Shown: piece by piece, positions 44,985-59,689 of the stretch
Position numbering within the stretch: the first letter of the stretch is position 1
Layout of the letters: every line of letters begins with the position of its first letter
DNA from: Candidatus Kuenenia stuttgartensis
GTDB lineage: Bacteria > Planctomycetota > Planctomycetia > Planctomycetales > Planctomycetaceae
Assembly: GCA_945904015.1 (NCBI GenBank)
Contig: CAMDPK010000013.1
Coordinates: 1 to 64,000 of the forward strand
DNA: 64,000 nucleotides
Direction of reading: 5' to 3'
Notes under the pieces: model-generated
The model's database searches: none
Told to the model about the DNA's origin: nothing
Seen by the model: the letters and a program-made list of their open reading frames with translations, nothing else
Program-made: the position numbers and the translations under genes

Positions 44985-45085
44985 GTGGACCCGCATCGTG
45001 GGATAGGCTTCCAGCCTGTCAAAGTTGCCGAGAAGTGACAGGCTGGAAGCCTATCCCACTGCCTACCGATCTCTGCGGGTCCACT
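44984..45085. repeat. 102-bp nested inverted repeat between two stop codons
   Basis: Outer arms AGTGGACCCGCA / TGCGGGTCCACT (44984-44995, 45074-45085) enclose inner arms GTGGGATAGGCTTCCAGCCT.. / ..AGGCTGGAAGCCTATCCCAC (24 bp, 44998-45059). The element starts at the last base of one gene's stop and ends at the first base of the other's stop, exactly filling the convergent gap. Confidence 0.85.
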
Positions 45086-46701: not shown

Positions 46702-46705
46702 GGGG

Positions 46706-46801
46706 AGAGTGGCGAGTTGTTAGTGGCGAGTGGCGAGCATGAGAGTTGACGCCCGGCTTTGTTTTTCAACTCGCCACTCGCCACTAACAACTCGCCACTC
46801 T
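46706..46801. repeat. 96-bp inverted repeat, 32-bp perfect arms
   Basis: Arms AGAGTGGCGAGTTGTTAGTG.. (46706-46737) and the exact complement (46770-46801) flank a 32-base centre. The repeating word is GTGGCGAG. It fills the gap between the oxidoreductase start and the molybdopterin-fold gene stop. Confidence 0.85.
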
Positions 46802-46803
46802 TC

Positions 46804-47277
46804 CTACCGATGCAACGCTTCGTGTTCCTGCTCGTCGTGTGGGCGGTTGTCGCGGCCTCTGCCGGCGGTGAGTTCGATACGGTCCACAAACTTCACGTTC
46901 GCGCAGTCGTCGAGTTCATCGGTGTGACACACGGCCGGATTCTTGATGAGGAATCGAAACGGCCCGCCTTTCGCTTCCGGGTACGGCGTCCCGTCAAGCT
47001 GATAGACGACGACCGCTTCGTCCACGATCGCTGCCAGCGGGATGCTCGCCGCGAAGTCGTCGCGCGTGGCGTGCAGAGTCAGATAGGTGGCGTCGGTGGT
47101 GGGGACCACTCGGTCCAAGATCGCTCGCAAGGTGACGCCGTCTCCCGGTCGCTTCGGATGGAAGCGAGTGAAGTCCCGAACGTGCTCGGCCTCCGAGAAC
47201 GCTCGCAAGTCGTCGAAGGAAAAGGATTGAGGCGACGCCACCAAACCGTCCACTCGCAATGTCGCTGACTGAGTCAT
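46804..47277 (-). CDS. Molybdopterin-binding oxidoreductase-like protein
   Basis: This 157-residue protein has the fold signature of the sulfite-oxidase-type molybdopterin-binding domain (LRVDGLVASPQSFSFDDLRA, RFHPKRPGDGVTLRAILDRV, GTPYPEAKGGPFRFLIKN). At this length it has only a minimal domain and no C-terminal dimerisation domain; the usual molybdenum-coordinating cysteine is not evident, so it may not bind the metal. The next gene downstream of its start is a Rieske protein on the same strand, suggesting a redox pair. The ATG at 47277 is the likely start. Confidence 0.75.
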   Translation of the reverse strand: MTQSATLRVDGLVASPQSFSFDDLRAFSEAEHVRDFTRFHPKRPGDGVTLRAILDRVVPTTDATYLTLHATRDDFAASIPLAAIVDEAVVVYQLDGTPYPEAKGGPFRFLIKNPAVCHTDELDDCANVKFVDRIELTAGRGRDNRPHDEQEHEALHR

Positions 47278-47685: not shown

Positions 47686-47710
47686 CGAATGCCTCGTGGT
47701 GGTTGATCTT

Positions 47711-47803
47711 GTAACCCGCCGCGTCAGCAAGGGCGAACACTTCCGCACATGTTGAAACCGACTGTCGCTTGAAGCGTCCGCCCTTGCTGACGCGGCGGGT
47801 TAC
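47711..47803. repeat. 93-bp inverted repeat, 25-bp perfect arms
   Basis: Arms GTAACCCGCCGCGTCAGCAAGGGCG-type (47711-47735) and exact complement (47779-47803) flank a 43-base centre. It lies between the divergent Rieske and DUF58 genes, partly in the leader of each. Confidence 0.85.
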
Positions 47804-47867
47804 GAAGACAAACAAACGCAGAGTAGAGCCTCGCTCGTGTGGCCTCAATCGTACTACGATCCCGCTC

Positions 47868-48746
47868 ATGCCGCTGTTCGATTCCGATTTTCTGAAGAAG
47901 CTCGAATACCTGTCGCTCGTCTCGCGGCGGTTGTTTCGCGGTTCGTTGCTGGCTCAGCGGCGGACGATGCAAACCGGAGGCGGCATCGAGTTCGCCGATC
48001 ATCGCGAGTACTCGCACGGAGATGACTTTCGGCATTTGGATTGGAACGTGTTCGCTCGGCATGGGCAGTTGCTGCTGAAGCGGTTTCAAGAAGAAGAGGA
48101 CTTGCACGTCTACCTGCTGCTGGATTGTTCGCGAAGCATGGCGTTCGGTTCGCCGCCGAAGTTCGATCTAGCTCGGCAAATCGTCGCCGCGCTGGCGTAC
48201 ATCGCACTGTCCGATTTGGACCGAGTCGCCGTGATCGCCTTCGCGGACGACATCGTCGCCGACTTTCCGTTGACTCGCGGCAAGGACCGGATTCTCTCGC
48301 TGCTGAAATTTCTCGACGGGCTTGAGGTGCAAGGCGAGGCCACGGACCTGGGCCGCGTCGTCAAAGCCTTCACGCAACGCCCGCAGCGACGCGGGTTGGC
48401 CATCGTCGTCAGTGATCTCTTCGACCCCAACGGCTACGAGCGAGGCTTCGATCAGCTTCGCTACCGCAACTACGAACTGCACGCCGTCCAACTGCACGAC
48501 CGGCTCGAAGCCGAACCAAGTTTGCTGGGCGAGTTGGAGCTCGTGGACATCGAATCCGATGGCGGACAAAAGGTGACGATCACCGAGAACGCCTTGAAGA
48601 AGTACCGGATATTGTTCGAGGACTTCCAAGAATCGCTGCGAAAGTACGGCCGCAAATACGGCGTCGGCCTGACGCAGACGCGATGCGAGGTGCCGTTTGA
48701 CGAATTGATTTTAAAGATGATGCGTGCTTCGGGAGCGGTGAGATGA
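47868..48746 (+). CDS. DUF58 / VWA-like domain protein
   Basis: This 292-residue cytoplasmic or membrane-associated protein has the DUF58 signature QTGGGIEFADHREYSHGDDF.RHLDWNVFARHG and a degenerate von Willebrand factor A MIDAS motif DCSRS (D86). DUF58 genes typically neighbour MoxR-type AAA+ ATPases and VWA membrane proteins (Bat/aerotolerance operons), and here the next genes are VWA proteins. No MoxR gene is in the window. The start at 47868 gives the family N-terminus; a longer frame begins in the palindromic repeat and is rejected. Confidence 0.9.
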   Translation: MPLFDSDFLKKLEYLSLVSRRLFRGSLLAQRRTMQTGGGIEFADHREYSHGDDFRHLDWNVFARHGQLLLKRFQEEEDLHVYLLLDCSRSMAFGSPPKFDLARQIVAALAYIALSDLDRVAVIAFADDIVADFPLTRGKDRILSLLKFLDGLEVQGEATDLGRVVKAFTQRPQRRGLAIVVSDLFDPNGYERGFDQLRYRNYELHAVQLHDRLEAEPSLLGELELVDIESDGGQKVTITENALKKYRILFEDFQESLRKYGRKYGVGLTQTRCEVPFDELILKMMRASGAVR

Positions 48747-48750
48747 AGAG

Positions 48751-48864
48751 GCAGTGCAAAGTGCCGAGTGCCGAGTGCAAAGTGAAAAATGACCTGGCAG
48801 GTCACTGCTGGCGCAGGTGCCTGCACTTTGCACTTTGCACTTTGCACTCTGCACTTTGCACTGC
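48751..48864. repeat. Repeat with GTGCAAAGT / ACTTTGCAC units
   Basis: The left part carries GTGCAAAGTGCCGAGTGCC units, and the right part carries four or five ACTTTGCAC copies that are their complement. It lies between the DUF58 and BatA-like genes and partly precedes the latter's CAGGAGACC ribosome-binding site. Confidence 0.75.
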
Positions 48865-48885
48865 CCAACACCAGGAGACCTGCGA

Positions 48886-50859
48886 ATGTCGCTAGCCTCC
48901 CCGCTCGCACTGCTCTGGCTCGCCGCTCTGATCCCGGTCGTGGTCTTCTACATTCTGAAGATTCGGCTACGGCGAGTACCGGTCTCGACGATTTTGTTCT
49001 GGCGGCAGATCTACGACGAGCACCGGCCCCGTTCGATCTGGCAGCGGCTGAGACATTGGTTGTCTCTGTTGGCTCAGATCGTGTTGATCTTGTTACTGGT
49101 GGGAGCACTCACCGATCCGTTCTTTGCCTGGGAGACTCGGCAACTGCGGCGAATCGTGTTGATCGTGGATAACTCGGCCAGCATGAATGCAGCGGATATC
49201 TCGCCGTCGCGCCTGGCCGCCGCGAAGGACGAAGCGTTGCGAGTCATTCACGGGATGCGATTCCGTGACGAACTGGCCGTGGTCGTGGCCGGTGGATCGC
49301 CGCGAGTCGTCTGCGGGTTTTCGAGCCACGGCCGCACACTGGCCCACGCCGTTGATGATGTCGTGCCCACCGACAACCCCACGCGAGTGACAGAGGCGGT
49401 CGAGCTTGCTCGCCGCTTGCTTGGCGAACGACAAGACGAGCATCTGCGTGAGATCGTCGTGCTGACCGACGTGGGGCAGGTTTCCAACCTGCCCGGCCCG
49501 AATGCAGTGGAAGAGTCACGGGCAGGTTGGAAACCTGCCCCACGAGTCATCATCCGCCGCTTCGGTACGAACACTGGCAACGTGGGCATCACGCGGTTTC
49601 AGGTGCGGCGGAGTTTGATCGATCCGCTCGGCTACGAGATTCTCGCGGAGGTCACGAACGCCTCGAATGAGCCGGTCGAGTGTCGCTTGGAGATTGATCT
49701 GAATGAGGACGTCGTCGATGTCGTGCCGTTGAAGCTGACACCGGGTCAGCGTTGGAGCCAGACTTTTGAAAAGACCTCGGCCGACGGCGGACACCTTTTG
49801 GCGAAGCTGGATCGAGCAGATGCTCTCGCGGCGGACAATCGCGCGTGGGCCGTGTTGCCGAAACGCGAGTTGATGCCCGTGACGCTTGTGTCTGAAGGAA
49901 ATCTGTTTCTCCAAAAAGTCTTCGAGTCGAATCCGCTGGTCGTGCTGACTCGCGTCGAGCCGGCGGCATGGAAGCCAACTTCCGAGCCGAGCGTGGGCAT
50001 CACCGTCTTGCATCACCACGTTCCCGAAAAACTGCCGGCGGGTTCGCTGCTGGTGATCGATCCGCGTGGCGGCTGCGATCTTTGGCAGCTTGGCGAACCG
50101 GTGCAGAATCCGATCGTCAATCAACAAGACAAGGACTCGCCGCTGCTCAGTCATGTGCGGCTGGATAACGTCGTGATGCCGGAGGCTCGGCAGGTAAAAG
50201 TCGCCAGCGACGAGGGAGTCAAAGTGCTGGCCCGTTCGCTTGCAGGCGATCCACTGTTGGCGACCATCGAGCGGCCAGGACAGAAGGTGTTGCTGCTGAC
50301 AGTCAATCTCGATGAAGGCGACCTGCCGCTGCGGACAGCGTTTCCGATCTTGATGATGAACGCCCTGAATTGGTTCACCGAAAACCGCGGCGAGCTGCGC
50401 GAGTCGTTGCCGACCGGGGCGATCACCGAGATTGATGTCGCGGTATTGAACGGCAGTCGGGGTCTGAGCGGCACCGCGCTAGCCGCCGGTGTTCCCGCAG
50501 TACCGGCGGCTAGCGCCGGCCCGCTCACGAGTTCTCAAATCCGCTTGATCGCGCCCGACGGACGTCGCTCAGCGTTACCGATACAGTCTGAGCGGCTGTC
50601 GCTGGGACCGTTCTATCAATGCGGCGTTTGGAGCGTCGTCGCCGCAGAGGACGACACGACGTTGCTCGAACTGGCCTGCAACCTCGCGGATCGGAATGAG
50701 TCGGACGTGCGAGTGCCGAAATCCGAAGAGGCGACGCAGACGTCCGTAGTCTCGGCGAGCGTGCTCGGCAATCAGCCGGTGTGGTTTTGGTTGATCGCAT
50801 CCGCGTGGCTGCTGATGGCGATCGAGTGGTGGGCGTATCAGCGACGAGTGATTGAATAG
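48886..50859 (+). CDS. BatA-like VWA membrane protein
   Basis: This 657-residue protein has two N-terminal membrane segments (LALLWLAALIPVVVFYI, LSLLAQIVLILLLVGAL) that match the BatA N-terminus, then a VWA domain with MIDAS DNSAS (D95) and a long C-terminal region ending in a hydrophobic helix (WFWLIASAWLLMAIEWW). It belongs to the DUF58/BatA group, implicated in membrane-associated MoxR complexes. Two palindromic repeats are translated within it: residues about 196-219 (49471-49543) and about 531-543 (50476-50516). The start at 48886 has a CAGGAG site. Confidence 0.9.
   Translation: MSLASPLALLWLAALIPVVVFYILKIRLRRVPVSTILFWRQIYDEHRPRSIWQRLRHWLSLLAQIVLILLLVGALTDPFFAWETRQLRRIVLIVDNSASMNAADISPSRLAAAKDEALRVIHGMRFRDELAVVVAGGSPRVVCGFSSHGRTLAHAVDDVVPTDNPTRVTEAVELARRLLGERQDEHLREIVVLTDVGQVSNLPGPNAVEESRAGWKPAPRVIIRRFGTNTGNVGITRFQVRRSLIDPLGYEILAEVTNASNEPVECRLEIDLNEDVVDVVPLKLTPGQRWSQTFEKTSADGGHLLAKLDRADALAADNRAWAVLPKRELMPVTLVSEGNLFLQKVFESNPLVVLTRVEPAAWKPTSEPSVGITVLHHHVPEKLPAGSLLVIDPRGGCDLWQLGEPVQNPIVNQQDKDSPLLSHVRLDNVVMPEARQVKVASDEGVKVLARSLAGDPLLATIERPGQKVLLLTVNLDEGDLPLRTAFPILMMNALNWFTENRGELRESLPTGAITEIDVAVLNGSRGLSGTALAAGVPAVPAASAGPLTSSQIRLIAPDGRRSALPIQSERLSLGPFYQCGVWSVVAAEDDTTLLELACNLADRNESDVRVPKSEEATQTSVVSASVLGNQPVWFWLIASAWLLMAIEWWAYQRRVIE
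49471..49543. repeat. Inverted repeat translated within the BatA-like gene
   Basis: 24-bp perfect arms (GTGGGGCAGGTTTCCAACCT.. and complement) around a 25-base centre. In frame it codes VGQVSNLPG..RAGWKPAP, a peptide that interrupts the VWA-family sequence between a beta strand (EIVVLTD) and the next (RVIIRRF). This repeat sequence is typical of planctomycete interspersed repeats. Confidence 0.85.
50476..50516. repeat. Second inverted repeat translated in the BatA-like gene
   Basis: 15-bp perfect arms GCGCTAGCCGCCGGT / ACCGGCGGCTAGCGC around an 11-base centre, coding ALAAGVPAVPAASAG. The same GCGCTAGC core occurs in the repeat at 59580-59638. Confidence 0.8.
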
Positions 50860-50879
50860 ACTCGATGTCGGAGTGACAC

Positions 50880-51509
50880 ATGCAACACGTTGTTCTTCTC
50901 GGTGATTCGATTTTTGACAACGCGTCGTACGTGCCGGGTGGCGATCCGCTGATTGAACAACTTCGGTCAAGGCTCCCGCGCGGATGCCGTGCTACGCTGC
51001 TCGCTGCGGACGGGGCGTGCATCAGCAATATCGCCAGACAACTCTCAAATGTGCCGAGTGACGCGAGTCACTTAGTGGTCAGCGTCGGTGGCAACGACGC
51101 TCTTCAGTGCAGTCCCGTTTTGAACGCAAGCATCACTTCCTCATCCGAGTTATTTGAGGAACTGGCTCAAATTCAAACGGAGTTTTTCGACGAGTATCGG
51201 TCAATGCTTCAATTGGTTGCGGCAGCTCAACGCCCAACCGTGATCTGCACAATCTATGATGCGATTCCCGACATCGGTCGAGATGCCGTCACGGCGCTGT
51301 CGATCTTCAACGACTCCATCATTCGAGCTGGAATTGACGCGGGCCTTCCGATCCTTGATCTACGGTTCGTTTGCAACGAGTCGCGAGACTACTCATCCAT
51401 TTCGTCGATTGAACCGTCGGAGATCGGCGGTTCCAAGATTGCGCGTGAAATCGCATACGTGTTGAAAAGCCATGATTTCTCAAGAGCGGAAACCGTCATT
51501 TACCGTTAG
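50880..51509 (+). CDS. SGNH-hydrolase-like protein
   Basis: This 209-residue protein has block I GDSIFDN (nucleophile Ser10), block III GGNDAL (oxyanion Gly/Asn) and a late segment where the catalytic Asp/His would lie, although no clear DxxH is visible. It would be a small esterase or lipase of the GDSL/SGNH type without a signal peptide. It lies 21 bases after the BatA-like gene and 6 bases before the VWA gene on the same strand, so it is co-transcribed with them. Its codon usage is richer in A and T than the neighbours, suggesting later acquisition. Confidence 0.75.
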   Translation: MQHVVLLGDSIFDNASYVPGGDPLIEQLRSRLPRGCRATLLAADGACISNIARQLSNVPSDASHLVVSVGGNDALQCSPVLNASITSSSELFEELAQIQTEFFDEYRSMLQLVAAAQRPTVICTIYDAIPDIGRDAVTALSIFNDSIIRAGIDAGLPILDLRFVCNESRDYSSISSIEPSEIGGSKIAREIAYVLKSHDFSRAETVIYR

Positions 51510-51515
51510 CCAACT

Positions 51516-54311
51516 ATGACACGACTTCAGTGGGGATTGGAATTCACACATCCGGGCTGGCTGGCCGCGGTGGTCGCCGTGCCGTGGGTGGTGTGGTATT
51601 TCCGACAGAGCTTGGTGGACTTCGCGCGGTGGCAGCGGGCTGTCTCGACGGGAGTTCGTGTCGCAATTGTGTTGCTGCTGGTATTAGCTCTGGCGGGGCT
51701 GACGCTGTTGCGGCCGACGGCTCGGCAGTTTGTGATTGTGGCTGTGGATCAGAGTTTGAGTGTTGGTGAGGAGCCGCTGCTGGGAGTCGTGGACGCAAGC
51801 GCGACGAAGAAGACCTCGGTGGCGGATCGGTTTCTCGATGAGCTGTTGGCGGCGAGGGTGATTGGGGCTGATGACCGTATTGCATTCGTGCCGTTTGGAT
51901 CGCGTCCGGCTGCGGTATCGGACCAGCCGTCTTGGCGAGCGGAGGGTGTCAACCCTCCGAGTGACGCAACATCGCCCAAAGCGGAAACACTCGGAGGGTT
52001 GACACCCTCCGCTCGCCGAGACGAATTCCGTGATGGCACCGACATCGCGGCGGCGATTGAAGCGGCGGCGGCGGCGATGCCTCCGGATTATGTGCCGAGG
52101 ATTTTGCTGCTGACCGACGGCAATCAGACGAAGGGGGATGCGTTGCAGGCGGCGTTGGCCACGGCGAATCGAGAGCGGCGGCGCGAGGCGATTCCGATCA
52201 CCACGATTCCTCTGCCGACGCGCGATGATCCCGAAGTGCAGTTGTCGGCCGTGAAGGTGCCGGCACAGGTGCGCGAGGGTGAGCCGTTTTATGTCGAGGT
52301 CGTGATCGATTCGAACCACGACGACGAAGGGTTGATCGAGGTTTTTCGCGGTGCTCACAAAGTGCTGTCAGAAACGAAGCCGCTCAAAAAGGGGGAGAAC
52401 CGGTTTCGGTTCCCGCAGTCGATTCAGCGCGAACGTCTGGCGGAGTACGCCGCGCGAATCAGCGGGCTGAAGCAGGACACGCTGGTCGACAACAACAGCG
52501 ACAACGGATTGGTCTTCACGGCGGGACAGCCGCGTGTGTTGCTGATCGACAGTGATCCCAAACAGACCGAGCATCTCGTGTTCGCGTTGCAGCAGGAGGA
52601 CATTCAAGTCGATGTCCGGCCTCCGCAGGGAATGCCGGAGGACTTGGCCGACTTGCAGAACTATGAATTGCTGGCGCTGTCGAACGTGCCGGCGACGTCG
52701 CTGACTCAGCGGCAAATGGAACTTGCTCGGACGTACGTGCAAGACCTCGGCGGCGGATTCGTGATGCTCGGCGGCGATCAGTCGTTCGGGCTGGGCGGGT
52801 ACTACAAAACGGTGCTCGAAGAAATCCTGCCGGTGCGATCCGACTTCGAGAAGGAAAAAGAAAAGCCGAGCCTGGCGATGGTCCTGGTCGTCGATCGGTC
52901 GGGGTCGATGGCCGGACAAAAACTGGAAATGGCGAAAGAAGCCGCGAAGGCCGCCACCGAACTGCTGGGACCGAAAGACCAAATCGGCGTGATCTGCTTC
53001 GACGAGACGCACTACTGGGTCAGCCAACTGCAATCGGCATCGAACAAGGGCCGCATCTTGGACGAGATCAGCGGCATTCAAGTCGGCGGCGGCACGAGCC
53101 TCTATCCGCCGATGGAAGAGGCGTATCAATCGTTGGTCAACGCGGTGTCGAAACTGAAGCACGTTATCGTGCTGACCGACGGCATCTCGAACCCCGGCGA
53201 CTTCGAGGGACTCGCGCAGAACATGGCTTCGGCCCGGATCACCTGCTCGACAGTCGGCGTCGGCGACGGTGCCGCGGGCGATTTGTTGGAGACGATCGCT
53301 CGCATCGGCCAAGGCAGGTACTTCATCGCGACCGATCCGGCTTCGCTGCCGCAAATCTTTGCCAAGGAAACGCTGACCGTCAGCAAAGCCGCGATCAACG
53401 AGCAGCCATTTATCCCGCAAGTCATCCGACCAACGCAGGCACTCGCGGGCATCGACTTCGAGTCCGCTCCGTTTCTGCTGGGATATGTGATGACTCGGCC
53501 GAAGCCGACGTGCGAGCTGATCCTCGCCAGCGAGCAGGGTGATCCGGTGCTGGCGTGGTGGCGATACGGACTCGGCACGACGGTCGCGTTCACGAGCGAC
53601 GCGAAAAGCCGCTGGGCTGCCGAGTGGCTGACGTGGCCCGGCTTCAGCAAGTTCTGGGCACAGACGATTCGTCACGCGATGCGCAAGAACGACGCGAAGG
53701 GAGTGACGGTCGAGGTCGCTCAACGCGCTCGCCGCGCGACGGTGACGCTCGACGCCGTCGATCCGAGCGGCCGATTTCTGAACGGAGCCGAATCCGAAAT
53801 CACGGTCATCGACCCACGACTCGGCGAGCGAAAGCTGCCGCTGATTCAAACCGCTCCCGGCCGCTACGTCGCCGAGTTCGATACGCCCAACCCCGGTTCG
53901 TACCACTTGAATCTGTCGCAACGCGCGGCCAACGGCGGTCCGATCATTCATCAACAAACTCGCGGTCTGACGGTCGGCTACTCCGACGAATTCCGCCTGC
54001 GACCGACGAACACCGAACTGCTGCAACAGATCGCGACCGCGACCGGAGGGCGATTCAATCCGCAGCCCAGCGAAGCGCTGCTCGACGCGCCGAGCGTTTC
54101 GGCACTGCAACGCATGGCTCAGCAAACTCGGCCACTGTGGCCGGAGTTGGTGATGCTGGCGCTGGTCCTGTTCGTGTTTGACGTCGCGCTGCGGCGCATC
54201 GACTTGTCCGTTTGGTTCCCGTCGGCCAACACGGCAGTGACGACGGTCGTCAAACGTGCGGCGGCGAAGCGTACCAGTCCTCCGAAACAAGCCGAGTCAC
54301 GAGCACTCTGA
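51516..54311 (+). CDS. Large VWA membrane protein (BatB/BatC-like context)
   Basis: This 931-residue protein has two N-terminal hydrophobic segments (GWLAAVVAVPWVVWYF, VRVAIVLLLVLALAGLTLL). A glutamine-amidotransferase-like fold region (RVLLIDSDPKQTEHLVFALQ, GGGFVMLGGDQSFGLGGYY near residue 415) and a VWA domain with MIDAS DRSGSMAG (D460) follow. The C-terminus has a final hydrophobic helix. Planctomycete homologues of this architecture accompany DUF58/BatA genes. A palindromic repeat (51931-52020) is translated at about residues 139-168. It probably forms an envelope complex with the BatA-like protein, with ligands unknown. Confidence 0.88.
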   Translation: MTRLQWGLEFTHPGWLAAVVAVPWVVWYFRQSLVDFARWQRAVSTGVRVAIVLLLVLALAGLTLLRPTARQFVIVAVDQSLSVGEEPLLGVVDASATKKTSVADRFLDELLAARVIGADDRIAFVPFGSRPAAVSDQPSWRAEGVNPPSDATSPKAETLGGLTPSARRDEFRDGTDIAAAIEAAAAAMPPDYVPRILLLTDGNQTKGDALQAALATANRERRREAIPITTIPLPTRDDPEVQLSAVKVPAQVREGEPFYVEVVIDSNHDDEGLIEVFRGAHKVLSETKPLKKGENRFRFPQSIQRERLAEYAARISGLKQDTLVDNNSDNGLVFTAGQPRVLLIDSDPKQTEHLVFALQQEDIQVDVRPPQGMPEDLADLQNYELLALSNVPATSLTQRQMELARTYVQDLGGGFVMLGGDQSFGLGGYYKTVLEEILPVRSDFEKEKEKPSLAMVLVVDRSGSMAGQKLEMAKEAAKAATELLGPKDQIGVICFDETHYWVSQLQSASNKGRILDEISGIQVGGGTSLYPPMEEAYQSLVNAVSKLKHVIVLTDGISNPGDFEGLAQNMASARITCSTVGVGDGAAGDLLETIARIGQGRYFIATDPASLPQIFAKETLTVSKAAINEQPFIPQVIRPTQALAGIDFESAPFLLGYVMTRPKPTCELILASEQGDPVLAWWRYGLGTTVAFTSDAKSRWAAEWLTWPGFSKFWAQTIRHAMRKNDAKGVTVEVAQRARRATVTLDAVDPSGRFLNGAESEITVIDPRLGERKLPLIQTAPGRYVAEFDTPNPGSYHLNLSQRAANGGPIIHQQTRGLTVGYSDEFRLRPTNTELLQQIATATGGRFNPQPSEALLDAPSVSALQRMAQQTRPLWPELVMLALVLFVFDVALRRIDLSVWFPSANTAVTTVVKRAAAKRTSPPKQAESRAL
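51931..52020. repeat. Inverted repeat translated within the VWA gene
   Basis: 30-bp arms (CTTGGCGAGCGGAGGGTGTC.. and its complement, one mismatch) flank a 30-base centre. The frame is open throughout and codes AEGVNPPSD..GGLTPSAR. The GGCGAGCGG end is shared with elements near 30 and 32970. Confidence 0.85.
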
Positions 54312-54333
54312 CCCCTCTTGGAGTCATTCGCCG

Positions 54334-56373
54334 ATGCGCAATTCTCTGATGTTTCCGAAGTCGTTCCTCGTCGCAGGAATGTTGCACCTGGCCGTTTCCT
54401 CTGCGGGCGGAGTGAAAGCTTCTGAAGCCGTGGCGGGCCGATCACTCGAAGGATGGACTGCCGAGTTGCAGTCGCCGTCGCCGGTGGCGCGACGTCGAGC
54501 GGTGCTGTCGGTTGGAGCTTTCGGTAAGTCGGCGGTGACGGCGCTGAAGCAGGCGTTGTCTCACAAAGACGCGGTGGTGCGGTACTGGGCGGCGAGCGAG
54601 TTGGGCGATCTTGGCGACGATTCGCAGCCCGCGCTGGAGGCCCTGCGAAAGTTGCACGGTGAGAAACCAATCGGAGTGCGAATCGCAGCGGCGTATGCGT
54701 TGTGCCGCATCGGCCATGTCGAAGAAGGCTTGCCGACGTTGCTCGAAGGGTTGCAGCACAGCGAGCGCGGTGTGTGGAATTCGTCGGCCGATTTTCTGGC
54801 TCGGATCGGTCCGCCGGCGAAGGCCGCGATTCCGACGCTGGAAGCGGAAGGGAAACGGGGAGCCGATCACATCGCCGACATTTGCAACGAGGCGCTGCGG
54901 CGGATTCGTGGCGTTGATCAACCGGTGCAGTCGAGGACGGCGAACCAGACGCAAGGGGACGCGGCCGGAGGCAAAGCGAACAATAAAATGACGGCGGCTG
55001 CGGTGTTCTCGAAGGCGTTCCTCGACGAAGACGTCGGACGGTTTGCCAAATCGGTTGAGAAACGAAAACATCCGAACGTCCTGTGGATCAGCGCGGAGGA
55101 CATCTCGCCGAGTCTCGGCTGTTACGGCGATTCGTATGCGATGACTCCGCGACTGGATCAGCTCGCGAGCGAGGGAATGCGGTTCACGCGGTGCTTCACT
55201 CATGCTGGCGTGTGCGCGATCTCGCGGTCGGGGCTGATCACGGGGATGTATCCCGTGTCGATCGGCAGCCAGCACATGCGGTCGCAGATCGTGTTGCCGC
55301 CGCAGGTGAAGGCGTTTCCGGAATACCTGCGAGCGGCCGGGTACTGGACGACGAACCGCTCGAAGACGGACTACAACTTTCCGCCGCCGAAGGCCGCGTG
55401 GGATGAGAACAGCGCTCAGTCTCGTGATTGGCGTGGGCGAGCGGCCGGGCAGCCGTTCTTCAGCGTGATCAATCTCGTGACGACGCACGAGAGTCAGATT
55501 CGTGGCAAGTTCGGCGAGACACTGCACGACCCGGCGAAAGCTCAGTTGCCGCCGTACATCCCGGACACGCCGGTGACTCGGCGAGATTGGGCGCGGTACG
55601 CCGACTTGCTGACGACGCTCGATCAACAAGTCGCCGCGATCTTGGATCAGTTGCAGGCCGACGGACTCGCGCAGGACACGATCGTCTTCTTTTGGGGCGA
55701 TCACGGTCAGGGCCTGTCGCGCGGCAAACGCTGGCTGTACGACTCGGGGACGCGCACGCCGTTGATCATTCGCTGGCCGGGGAAGCTGGAGGCGGGATCG
55801 GTTTGCGAGGACTTGGTCTGCTTCTTGGATTTCGCGCCGACGATGTTGCGGCTGGCGGGCGTTGATGTGCCTTCGCATTTGCATGGGCGGGTCTTGCCGC
55901 CGATTGAAAACGGTATCACGGCTGTCGGCTCGCGGCCCTCGGCTGTCGGCCGGGAATACATTTTCGGGCATCGGGATCGGATGGATGAGACGTACGACTT
56001 GATTCGGTCGGCTCGCGACGCGCGTTTCAGATATCTCCGCAATTACGCGCCGCGGCGGTCCTACGCTCAGAATATCACCTACATGAATCAAATGCCGACG
56101 ATGCGCGAGATGCGGCGGCTGAATGCCGAGGGATCGTTGACCGGCGCACCGGCGCTGTACTTCCGCGAGTCCAAGCCGGTCGAAGAGTTGTTCGACACGG
56201 AGGCCGATCCGCACGAAGTCGTGAATCTTGCGGATCGGCCCGAACATGCCGAGACATTGAAGCGGATGCGAGCGGCTCTGGAACGCTGGCAAGAGGACGT
56301 CGGCGATTCGGGTTTGATCCCGGAACCGCTGCTCGTCACGCCGTTGGATCTAGCCGGCAGCAAATCTAATTGA
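54334..56373 (+). CDS. Sulfatase with N-terminal HEAT-like repeats
   Basis: This 679-residue exported protein has a signal peptide (FLVAGMLHLAVSSAGG). HEAT-like repeats follow at about residues 40-195 (VARRRAVLSVGAFGKSAVTA, VRYWAASELGDLGDDSQPAL). The sulfatase domain spans about 245-670: NVLWISAEDISPSLGCYGD with metal-binding Asp residues, the formylglycine site CAISR at 294-298, and WGDHG. The usual motif is CxPSR or CxASR; here the third position is Ile. A palindromic repeat is translated at about 525-540 (TAVGSRPSAVGR). It would hydrolyse sulfate esters, probably of polysaccharides; planctomycetes encode many. Confidence 0.9.
   Translation: MRNSLMFPKSFLVAGMLHLAVSSAGGVKASEAVAGRSLEGWTAELQSPSPVARRRAVLSVGAFGKSAVTALKQALSHKDAVVRYWAASELGDLGDDSQPALEALRKLHGEKPIGVRIAAAYALCRIGHVEEGLPTLLEGLQHSERGVWNSSADFLARIGPPAKAAIPTLEAEGKRGADHIADICNEALRRIRGVDQPVQSRTANQTQGDAAGGKANNKMTAAAVFSKAFLDEDVGRFAKSVEKRKHPNVLWISAEDISPSLGCYGDSYAMTPRLDQLASEGMRFTRCFTHAGVCAISRSGLITGMYPVSIGSQHMRSQIVLPPQVKAFPEYLRAAGYWTTNRSKTDYNFPPPKAAWDENSAQSRDWRGRAAGQPFFSVINLVTTHESQIRGKFGETLHDPAKAQLPPYIPDTPVTRRDWARYADLLTTLDQQVAAILDQLQADGLAQDTIVFFWGDHGQGLSRGKRWLYDSGTRTPLIIRWPGKLEAGSVCEDLVCFLDFAPTMLRLAGVDVPSHLHGRVLPPIENGITAVGSRPSAVGREYIFGHRDRMDETYDLIRSARDARFRYLRNYAPRRSYAQNITYMNQMPTMREMRRLNAEGSLTGAPALYFRESKPVEELFDTEADPHEVVNLADRPEHAETLKRMRAALERWQEDVGDSGLIPEPLLVTPLDLAGSKSN
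55908..55952. repeat. Repeat translated within the sulfatase gene
   Basis: GAAAACGGTATCACGGCTGT begins a stretch with CGGCTGTCGGC words that matches the left arm of the repeat at 1467-1552. It is translated in frame as NGITAVGSRPSAVGR, which does not match expected sulfatase sequence. Confidence 0.6.
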
Positions 56374-59037: not shown

Positions 59038-59580
59038 ATGCTGCTGAGTCTGTGTATTCCGATCATCGCCGCCACGGTGGCGTTGTTCTTCGCCAGCTAT
59101 TTGTCGTGGATGGTCTTGCCGTTTCACCGCAAGGATTGGGTCAAACTCGCCAAGGAGGATCAGTTCATGCAGGCCGTGCGCGACTGCGAGATTCCGATTG
59201 GCAGCTACATGTTTCCCGGCTGTGATTCGCCGGAGGAAATGAAAAGCGAGGCGTACAACAAAAAGTGGGAAGCCGGGCCGTGTGGAATCCTCTCGGTCTA
59301 TCCGAAGGTCAACATGGGGAGAAATTTGGGACTCACGTTTTTGTACTTTCTCGTGGTCAACTTCTGTTTGGCGTATCTCGCGACGCTGGCTCTTCAGCCG
59401 GGAGCGAATTTCATGGCGGTCTTCCGGTTCGTCTCAACTGCCGGGTTGATGACGTTCTTGGCGGCGATCGTGCAGCACGCGATTTGGTTTCACAGTCGCA
59501 TCGTCGGACACATTCTGGAATCAATCGCGTACGCGGCGATCAGCGGATCGATCTTCGCGGCGATGTGGCCCAAGCTATGA
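59038..59580 (+). CDS. Membrane protein, function unknown
   Basis: This 180-residue protein has an N-terminal helix (IPIIAATVALFFASYLSWMV) and three more hydrophobic segments (LTFLYFLVVNFCLAYLATLAL, FVSTAGLMTFLAAIVQ, IAYAAISGSIFAAMW). A central loop contains FPGCDSPEEMKSEAYNKKWE and YPKVNMGRN. The same layout is common among small planctomycete inner-membrane proteins of unknown function. The ATG at 59038 has a strong GGAGG site. The stop codon is directly followed by a perfect palindrome. Confidence 0.82.
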   Translation: MLLSLCIPIIAATVALFFASYLSWMVLPFHRKDWVKLAKEDQFMQAVRDCEIPIGSYMFPGCDSPEEMKSEAYNKKWEAGPCGILSVYPKVNMGRNLGLTFLYFLVVNFCLAYLATLALQPGANFMAVFRFVSTAGLMTFLAAIVQHAIWFHSRIVGHILESIAYAAISGSIFAAMWPKL

Positions 59581-59638
59581 GCCGCAGGGCGCTAGCCCCG
59601 GTTCGGATGACACAAACCGGGGCTAGCGCCCTGCGGCT
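59580..59638. repeat. Perfect inverted repeat at a stop codon
   Basis: 24-bp perfect arms AGCCGCAGGGCGCTAGCCCC.. (59580-59603) and complement (59615-59638). It starts at the last base of the preceding TGA. The GCGCTAGC core is shared with 50476-50516. It may act as a transcription terminator. Confidence 0.85.
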
Positions 59639-59689
59639 GATCAGGAAGTCATCACAGCCCCGTTCCTAAGTGGCGGAATCGAGACAGTT

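Follow-up and report, generated by a model that had tools for sequence, protein, structure and literature searches.

How do two long palindromic repeats come to lie, both in the reading frame, inside a single bacterial protein gene, and what becomes of the peptides that they encode? This question is raised by a BatA-like gene of Candidatus Kuenenia stuttgartensis in the window (the whole stretch of DNA that was analysed, 64,000 nucleotides long). The features of the window that are referred to below are as follows.

44998 to 45059, between genes, no strand assigned: intergenic relative of the site-1 family, GTGGGATAGGCTTCCAGCCTGTCA
48886 to 50859, + strand: BatA-like gene carrying both inserts, with BatA N-terminal and VWA_2 domains, 657 aa
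49470 to 49495, + strand: site 1, left REP-like arm CGTGGGGCAGGTTTCCAACCTGCCCG, translated VGQVSNLP (repeat analysis)
49496 to 49518, + strand: site 1 spacer, common to the congener G005 and unrelated to the spacers of other copies
49519 to 49544, - strand: site 1, right inverted REP-like arm, translated RAGWKPAPR (repeat analysis)
50465 to 50527, + strand: site 2, palindrome of the GCGCTAGC..CCGGT family, translated LSGTALAAGVPAVPAASAGPL, with a perfect core at 50476-50516
51516 to 54311, + strand: next gene, a VWA-domain protein of 931 aa (domain search), carrying a third in-frame palindrome
51928 to 52023, + strand: third in-frame palindrome, of the GGCGAGCGGAGGGTGTCAACCCTCC family, translated PSWRAEGVNPPSDATSPKAETLGGLTPSARRDE, missed by the sequence-only reading
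59577 to 59641, between genes, no strand assigned: intergenic relative of the site-2 family, AGCCGCAGGGCGCTAGCCCCGGTT

Palindromes in the BatA-like gene and its surroundings

Sites 1 and 2 are both located within the open reading frame 48817-50859, which contains the BatA-like gene and in which the probable start is at 48886. This is in agreement with the sequence-only reading, which had described two in-frame palindromes inside one gene and had given the insert peptides correctly. The two arms of site 1 (49470-49544) are each 26 bp long, are 100% complementary and are separated by a spacer of 23 nt; the site is an inverted pair of 25-bp hairpins, GTGGGGCAGGTTTYCAACCTGCCCG, each arm itself being a hairpin, GGCAGGTT-TCC-AACCTGCC, with GTGG in front. 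At site 2, the perfect 15-bp arms (50476-50490 and 50502-50516) can be extended to 26 bp at 88% (50465-50490 and 50502-50527). The two intergenic relatives in the list above bear out the earlier statement that these repeats are also found elsewhere as non-coding elements. The proposal that the inserts break conserved regions does not hold, as site 1 begins exactly at the end of the VWA_2 match (residue 195) and site 2 falls in a variable stretch. In the AlphaFold model of BatA, which is of low quality (mean pLDDT of 49), it can be seen only that site 1 lies in a low-confidence loop between two strands, and no Rfam match is obtained for the region 48600-54400 of the window.

Other palindromes are also present in the window. 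The palindrome at 47700-47814 overlaps the called start of ORF 47769-48746, whose N-terminal MKRPPLLTRRVTKTNKRR is probably palindrome derived, the true start being further in. The inverted repeats at 46703-46804 and 48750-48865 are made of short tandem words (AGTGGCGAGT, AGTGCAAAGTGC), and repeats of the same style occur inside genes elsewhere (L074:9422 and L284). Yet another in-frame family, translated SLSPWERAGVR...HPSPLPVGE or RGLLPLGEGGRRSDEG, is seen at L284:12197-12347 and in L039 (third site).

Abundance, reading phase and strand of the inserts

The arms are high-copy repeats of the genome. When one mismatch is allowed, the 23-mer arm of site 1 has 407 genome-wide matches, the exact site-1 19-mer has 60 and the site-2 core, GCGCTAGCSNCCGGT, has 113, and the controls, which for the site-1 patterns are the reversed patterns, have none. 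The genome thus holds about 400 arms of the site-1 type, or about 200 pairs. The exact 19-mer is present in nine of the 12 genomes of the genus (counting the genome studied here); outside the genus, it is found in one further genus and, as a single occurrence, in another.

The repeat census covers 1.6 Mb of the genome, with genes called by a simple codon-model script, and is composed of two samples: a selected sample of 40 stretches around exact site-1 arms (795 kb, including the window) and an unselected sample of 40 further stretches taken by contig number, ignoring the element (800 kb). Strong inverted repeats number 207 in the 795 kb of the selected sample and zero in 224 kb of Markov-simulated sequence, and therefore the palindromes of site 1 and site 2 are not the product of chance. 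In the selected sample, the site-1 family is represented by 66 inverted pairs compared with three lone arms (allowing up to three mismatches), and 52 of these 66 pairs are inside a called gene. The corresponding value of 79% was dropped as a family-wide estimate, as this sample had been chosen by its TCC-type arm and the value in the unselected sample is 33% (6 of 18 pairs, in sequence that is 81% coding). Such an under-representation of gene copies is as expected if selection removes most of the hits in genes. The unselected sample contains 147 strong palindromes of many families; 32 are located deep within genes that are 600 nt or longer, and all 32 are stop-free. Extrapolation from 800 kb to 7.4 Mb gives roughly 300 in-gene palindromes in this genome. 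These data support the view that in-frame hairpin elements are present inside hundreds of ordinary protein genes and that the phenomenon is genome wide and genus wide.

The host proteins are functionally unrelated to one another. Those assigned by NCBIfam include QueG, MnmG, DNA polymerase I, polyamine aminopropyltransferase, HflC, MurA and valine-tRNA ligase (ValRS); the RNase R host is just below the curated NCBIfam cut-off, and the FtsK host has a strong but partial match. When the hosts are aligned to solved structures, MnmG and MurA have their inserts in gaps between well-aligned segments, and the RNase R insert aligns poorly.

The inserts have a preferred phase and a preferred strand. 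In 48 of the 52 in-gene copies, the 5' end of the element coincides with a codon boundary (p of about 1e-11 when compared with a null in which 47.8% of the C|G steps in genes are on codon boundaries). Among the asymmetric pairs, having TCC in the loop of one arm and TTC in the loop of the other, when read on the coding strand, the 5' arm encodes Ser and the 3' arm Glu in 23, and the two arms encode Phe and Gly in two (p = 2e-5), and this count is independent of the way in which the sites were picked, because either orientation holds one picked arm. Of the 42 pairs with an exact TCC arm, 38 are located in genes, compared with 20 of the 42 other pairs (p = 4e-5). The in-gene call required an open reading frame, such that a net length that is a multiple of three is partly there by construction; the phase and the strand bias are not. 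An insert that is translated, and is then filtered as part of the protein, would be expected to depend on frame and on coding strand in this way, and translation in the cell is therefore probable. It is hardly credible, by comparison, that ribosome bypass or RNA removal takes the inserts out before or during translation, leaving a normal protein: such removal would suit the presence of stable hairpin-forming inserts in essential enzymes, but the kept frame, the lack of stops and the strand-dependent choice of Ser/Glu over Phe/Gly are expected only of translated sequence.

The constraint on the translated inserts is relaxed. In 19 comparisons, dN/dS is 0.86 in shared inserts versus 0.12 in their flanks, these values being approximate since some of the comparisons are duplicated and some are between subfamilies. 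The divergence at shared sites is 9% in the arms and 31% at the four-fold sites of the flanks. A single insertion followed by simple neutral decay would not give such a difference; homogenisation, a recent re-insertion or constraint acting on the DNA has to be invoked. The two arms have, at several sites, changed together between species (GGCAGG versus GGCACG), with a spacer that is recognisably shared at L060. The paired changes, together with the difference of 9% versus 31%, point to homogenisation or renewed insertion, rather than to constraint at the protein level. The conservation of the arms relative to the four-fold sites and the strong phase and strand bias could also be taken as signs that the peptides or the mRNA hairpins are functional, for example by slowing translation or binding something, and are kept by positive selection. 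This interpretation is improbable when considering the insert dN/dS of 0.86, the unrelated functions of the hosts and the finding, described below, that orthologues can have an unrelated palindrome, a short loop or nothing at the same place.

The same loops in related species

Flank-only protein queries were used for retrieving the orthologous DNA of 24 sites from three congeners, and of the window gene from eight. In the resulting 65 comparisons at the 24 sites, the congener has a palindrome of the same family in 25 cases, a different palindrome in 17, a long palindrome-free loop in 11 and a short loop in 12. At control positions of the same genes, 15-100 residues away, none of 442 comparisons has a palindrome, and 438 are without an insert of at least 20 nt. 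At site 1 of BatA, the GTGG pair is found in three species, degenerate in two; the site-1 element is common to two congeners, and most of the others hold another palindrome at the same codons. The third palindrome site has been compared in six congeners, most of which have different palindromes or repeats; the outgroup has a long repetitive loop. Outside the genus, the BatA loop is mostly shorter and of unrelated sequence in the more distant homologues. In the BatA orthologue of another genus (L016), a different inverted pair, GTGGCCGACGCTGCTAGCGTCGGT, is seen at this same loop.

Clear short-loop states are found for HflC (L061, with the sequence IGQSDANH), for L058:246, for L060 and, in the congeners G003, G011 and G041, for L067. 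The sequence-only reading had expected homologues to lack exactly these peptides, with a clean join of the DNA; this is only partly the case, as short loops do occur, but a simple empty site is rare in the congeners. Distant planctomycetes carrying the same peptides with divergent DNA, which would have refuted that reading, were not seen. The C before and the G after the element were considered as a CG target site, and this was rejected: in short-loop orthologues the base is often not C, and the flanking C and G are therefore more likely part of the element. Single hairpins of 27 nt are present in the G005 and G009 orthologues of L051:5621, L052:9903, L053:6894 and L087:11880, where the genome of the window has pairs of 57-60 nt; these forms are possibly deletion derivatives or precursors.

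The comparison with the congeners bears on two simpler explanations. According to the first, these are ordinary hypervariable loops, in which low-complexity sequence merely seems palindromic. Some orthologues and outgroups do have a long palindrome-free loop at the same place, but the arms are high-copy genomic repeats that also occur between genes, simulated sequence yields none of them and the 442 nearby control comparisons have no palindrome. This explanation is very unlikely overall and is refuted for the palindromic loops; the 11 long palindrome-free loops may fit it. According to the second, the inserts are artefacts of metagenome assembly, or the genes are pseudogenes. The members of the genus are indeed draft assemblies, but the same inserts, with open frames, are found again in assemblies that are independent of one another, and the flanks, with a dN/dS of 0.12, are under purifying selection; the probability of this explanation is practically negligible, the artefact being refuted by the recurrence across genomes.

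The reading that we prefer, with a probability of about 0.8, is that site 1 and site 2 are members of two REP-type palindrome families that have spread through this planctomycete genus, the in-gene survivors being translated and tolerated in loops that are hit repeatedly. Short REP-type hairpins, mostly as inverted pairs, would be mobile within the genus; copies that land in a gene would survive only if the frame is kept, if they are stop-free and if they are in a tolerant loop; and the surviving insert would be translated as a peptide of roughly 15-60 residues, which is carried along and drifts almost neutrally. The different palindromes at the same codons in congeners would then follow from the activity of the elements and the small number of tolerant loops, such that the same loops are hit repeatedly by different families.

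Arms, spacers and the mode of spread

How the pairs arrive in the loops is a separate matter, for which two modes can be considered. In the first, a complete REPIN or MITE is pasted in a single step, with its own spacer, by a RAYT transposase, as in the REPINs of Pseudomonas. This is in agreement with the near absence of lone arms, with the modal spacer length of 7 nt and with the RAYT genes that are flanked by pairs of other families. The spacers, however, range from 2 to 125 nt and are unrelated from copy to copy; a search for spacers held in common by the copies, which would have indicated cassette transposition, gave no more than a few short words, several of them of low complexity. Moreover, in FtsK (L069:9884-10058) the 125-nt spacer is host coding sequence, and the 40-odd residues concerned are also in place in a congener that lacks the arms; the spacer of L083 resembles this case, less certainly. 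At least some pairs are therefore two arms flanking host DNA and not one cassette, which is a poor fit to the insertion of a single cassette. The arms of one pair can also belong to different subfamilies, as found at L084:8374 and in the G005 orthologue of L075. Considering both sides, single-step insertion is a real possibility, though not the one to be expected. The second mode, which we put forward more tentatively still, is that certain loops are landing pads at which palindrome families are exchanged arm by arm in a hairpin-directed manner, by insertion into existing hairpins or by their conversion, such that a piece of host sequence can end up between two inverted arms.

Several of the eight Y1_Tnp matches in the genome are flanked by palindrome pairs, and for those families a spread that is driven by RAYT transposases is plausible. 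This does not extend to the site-1 family: at 35 loci of the genus (eight of this genome and 27 further ones, among the matches listed), no site-1 arm adjoins a RAYT gene, and at one of the RAYT loci (L205) a single pair of the site-1 type is about 1.4 kb away. Palindrome pairs of families other than site 1 are observed near RAYT (Y1_Tnp) genes, in a REPtron-like arrangement, at L095:1321-1448 and 2198-2329 and at L096:1233-1326 and 1855-1974.

The elements share properties with three systems described previously. With the REPIN/RAYT systems, they share the inverted orientation of two REP hairpins (in all 66 pairs) and the occurrence, for several palindrome families of this genome, of flanked Y1_Tnp genes. 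They differ in that no cognate RAYT gene flanked by the same repeat was found for the site-1 family at the 35 loci, whereas other families have one, in that the spacers are not conserved between copies (being host sequence in FtsK) and in their location, which is not strictly extragenic (52 of 66 pairs in genes in the selected sample and 6 of 18 in the unselected one).

The Rickettsia palindromic elements (RPEs) are repeated palindromes of several families, which lie in frame in unrelated, apparently functional genes and also between genes (PMC10969869; PMC3733652). The process proposed in the sequence-only reading as comparable to that of the RPEs is so in one respect, namely the in-frame insertion of repeated palindromes into unrelated protein genes, genome wide and genus wide; the elements themselves resemble REP pairs more than RPEs. 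They are from a different phylum, are pairs of 25-bp hairpins rather than elements of about 150 bp with a conserved peptide, and have unrelated spacers, and one loop can be reoccupied by different families in congeners. The RPEs of R. conorii are reported with a terminal CGTC (PMC3733652), whereas the terminus of the site-1 family is (C)GTGG.

Intragenic REP dimers tagged with GTAG or CGTC, adding about 20-30 residues to open reading frames, have been described for Opitutus terrae, Rickettsia conorii and others, and different REPs are present at about the same recB site of two Xanthomonas species (PMC3733652). The similarity concerns the inverted REP pairs in open reading frames, including those of the PVC superphylum. 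The tag at the foot of the hairpin is GTGG in the site-1 family, not GTAG, although several other families of this genome have GTAG. The present analysis adds measurements of the systematic reuse of the same sites, of the phase and strand bias, of the relaxed dN/dS and of host sequence enclosed by the arms. In the literature searched, no description of comparable in-frame inserts was found for planctomycete genes. In-frame palindromes (in Rickettsia) and intragenic REP dimers are thus already known; new are the scale, the repeated occupation of one loop by different families, the bias in frame and strand and the host sequence between the arms.

In-frame palindromes have so far mostly been taken as a curiosity of Rickettsia, together with scattered REP cases; here, some 300 are estimated for one planctomycete genome, some of which are in essential enzymes. 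For planctomycete annotations this is a warning, since such peptides are repeat derived. The sets of congeners in which a loop is short, filled or filled by another family are a natural insertion scan, by which the movement of REPs, the number of protein loops that tolerate 20-60 extra residues and the possible role of repeats as a source of new protein sequence become testable. Exchange at landing pads, if true, would mean that REPs can spread other than as cassettes, altering the same loops of essential proteins over and over. Related species of this genus hold different hairpins at the same loops, such that the same places in essential proteins are rewritten again and again by repetitive DNA.
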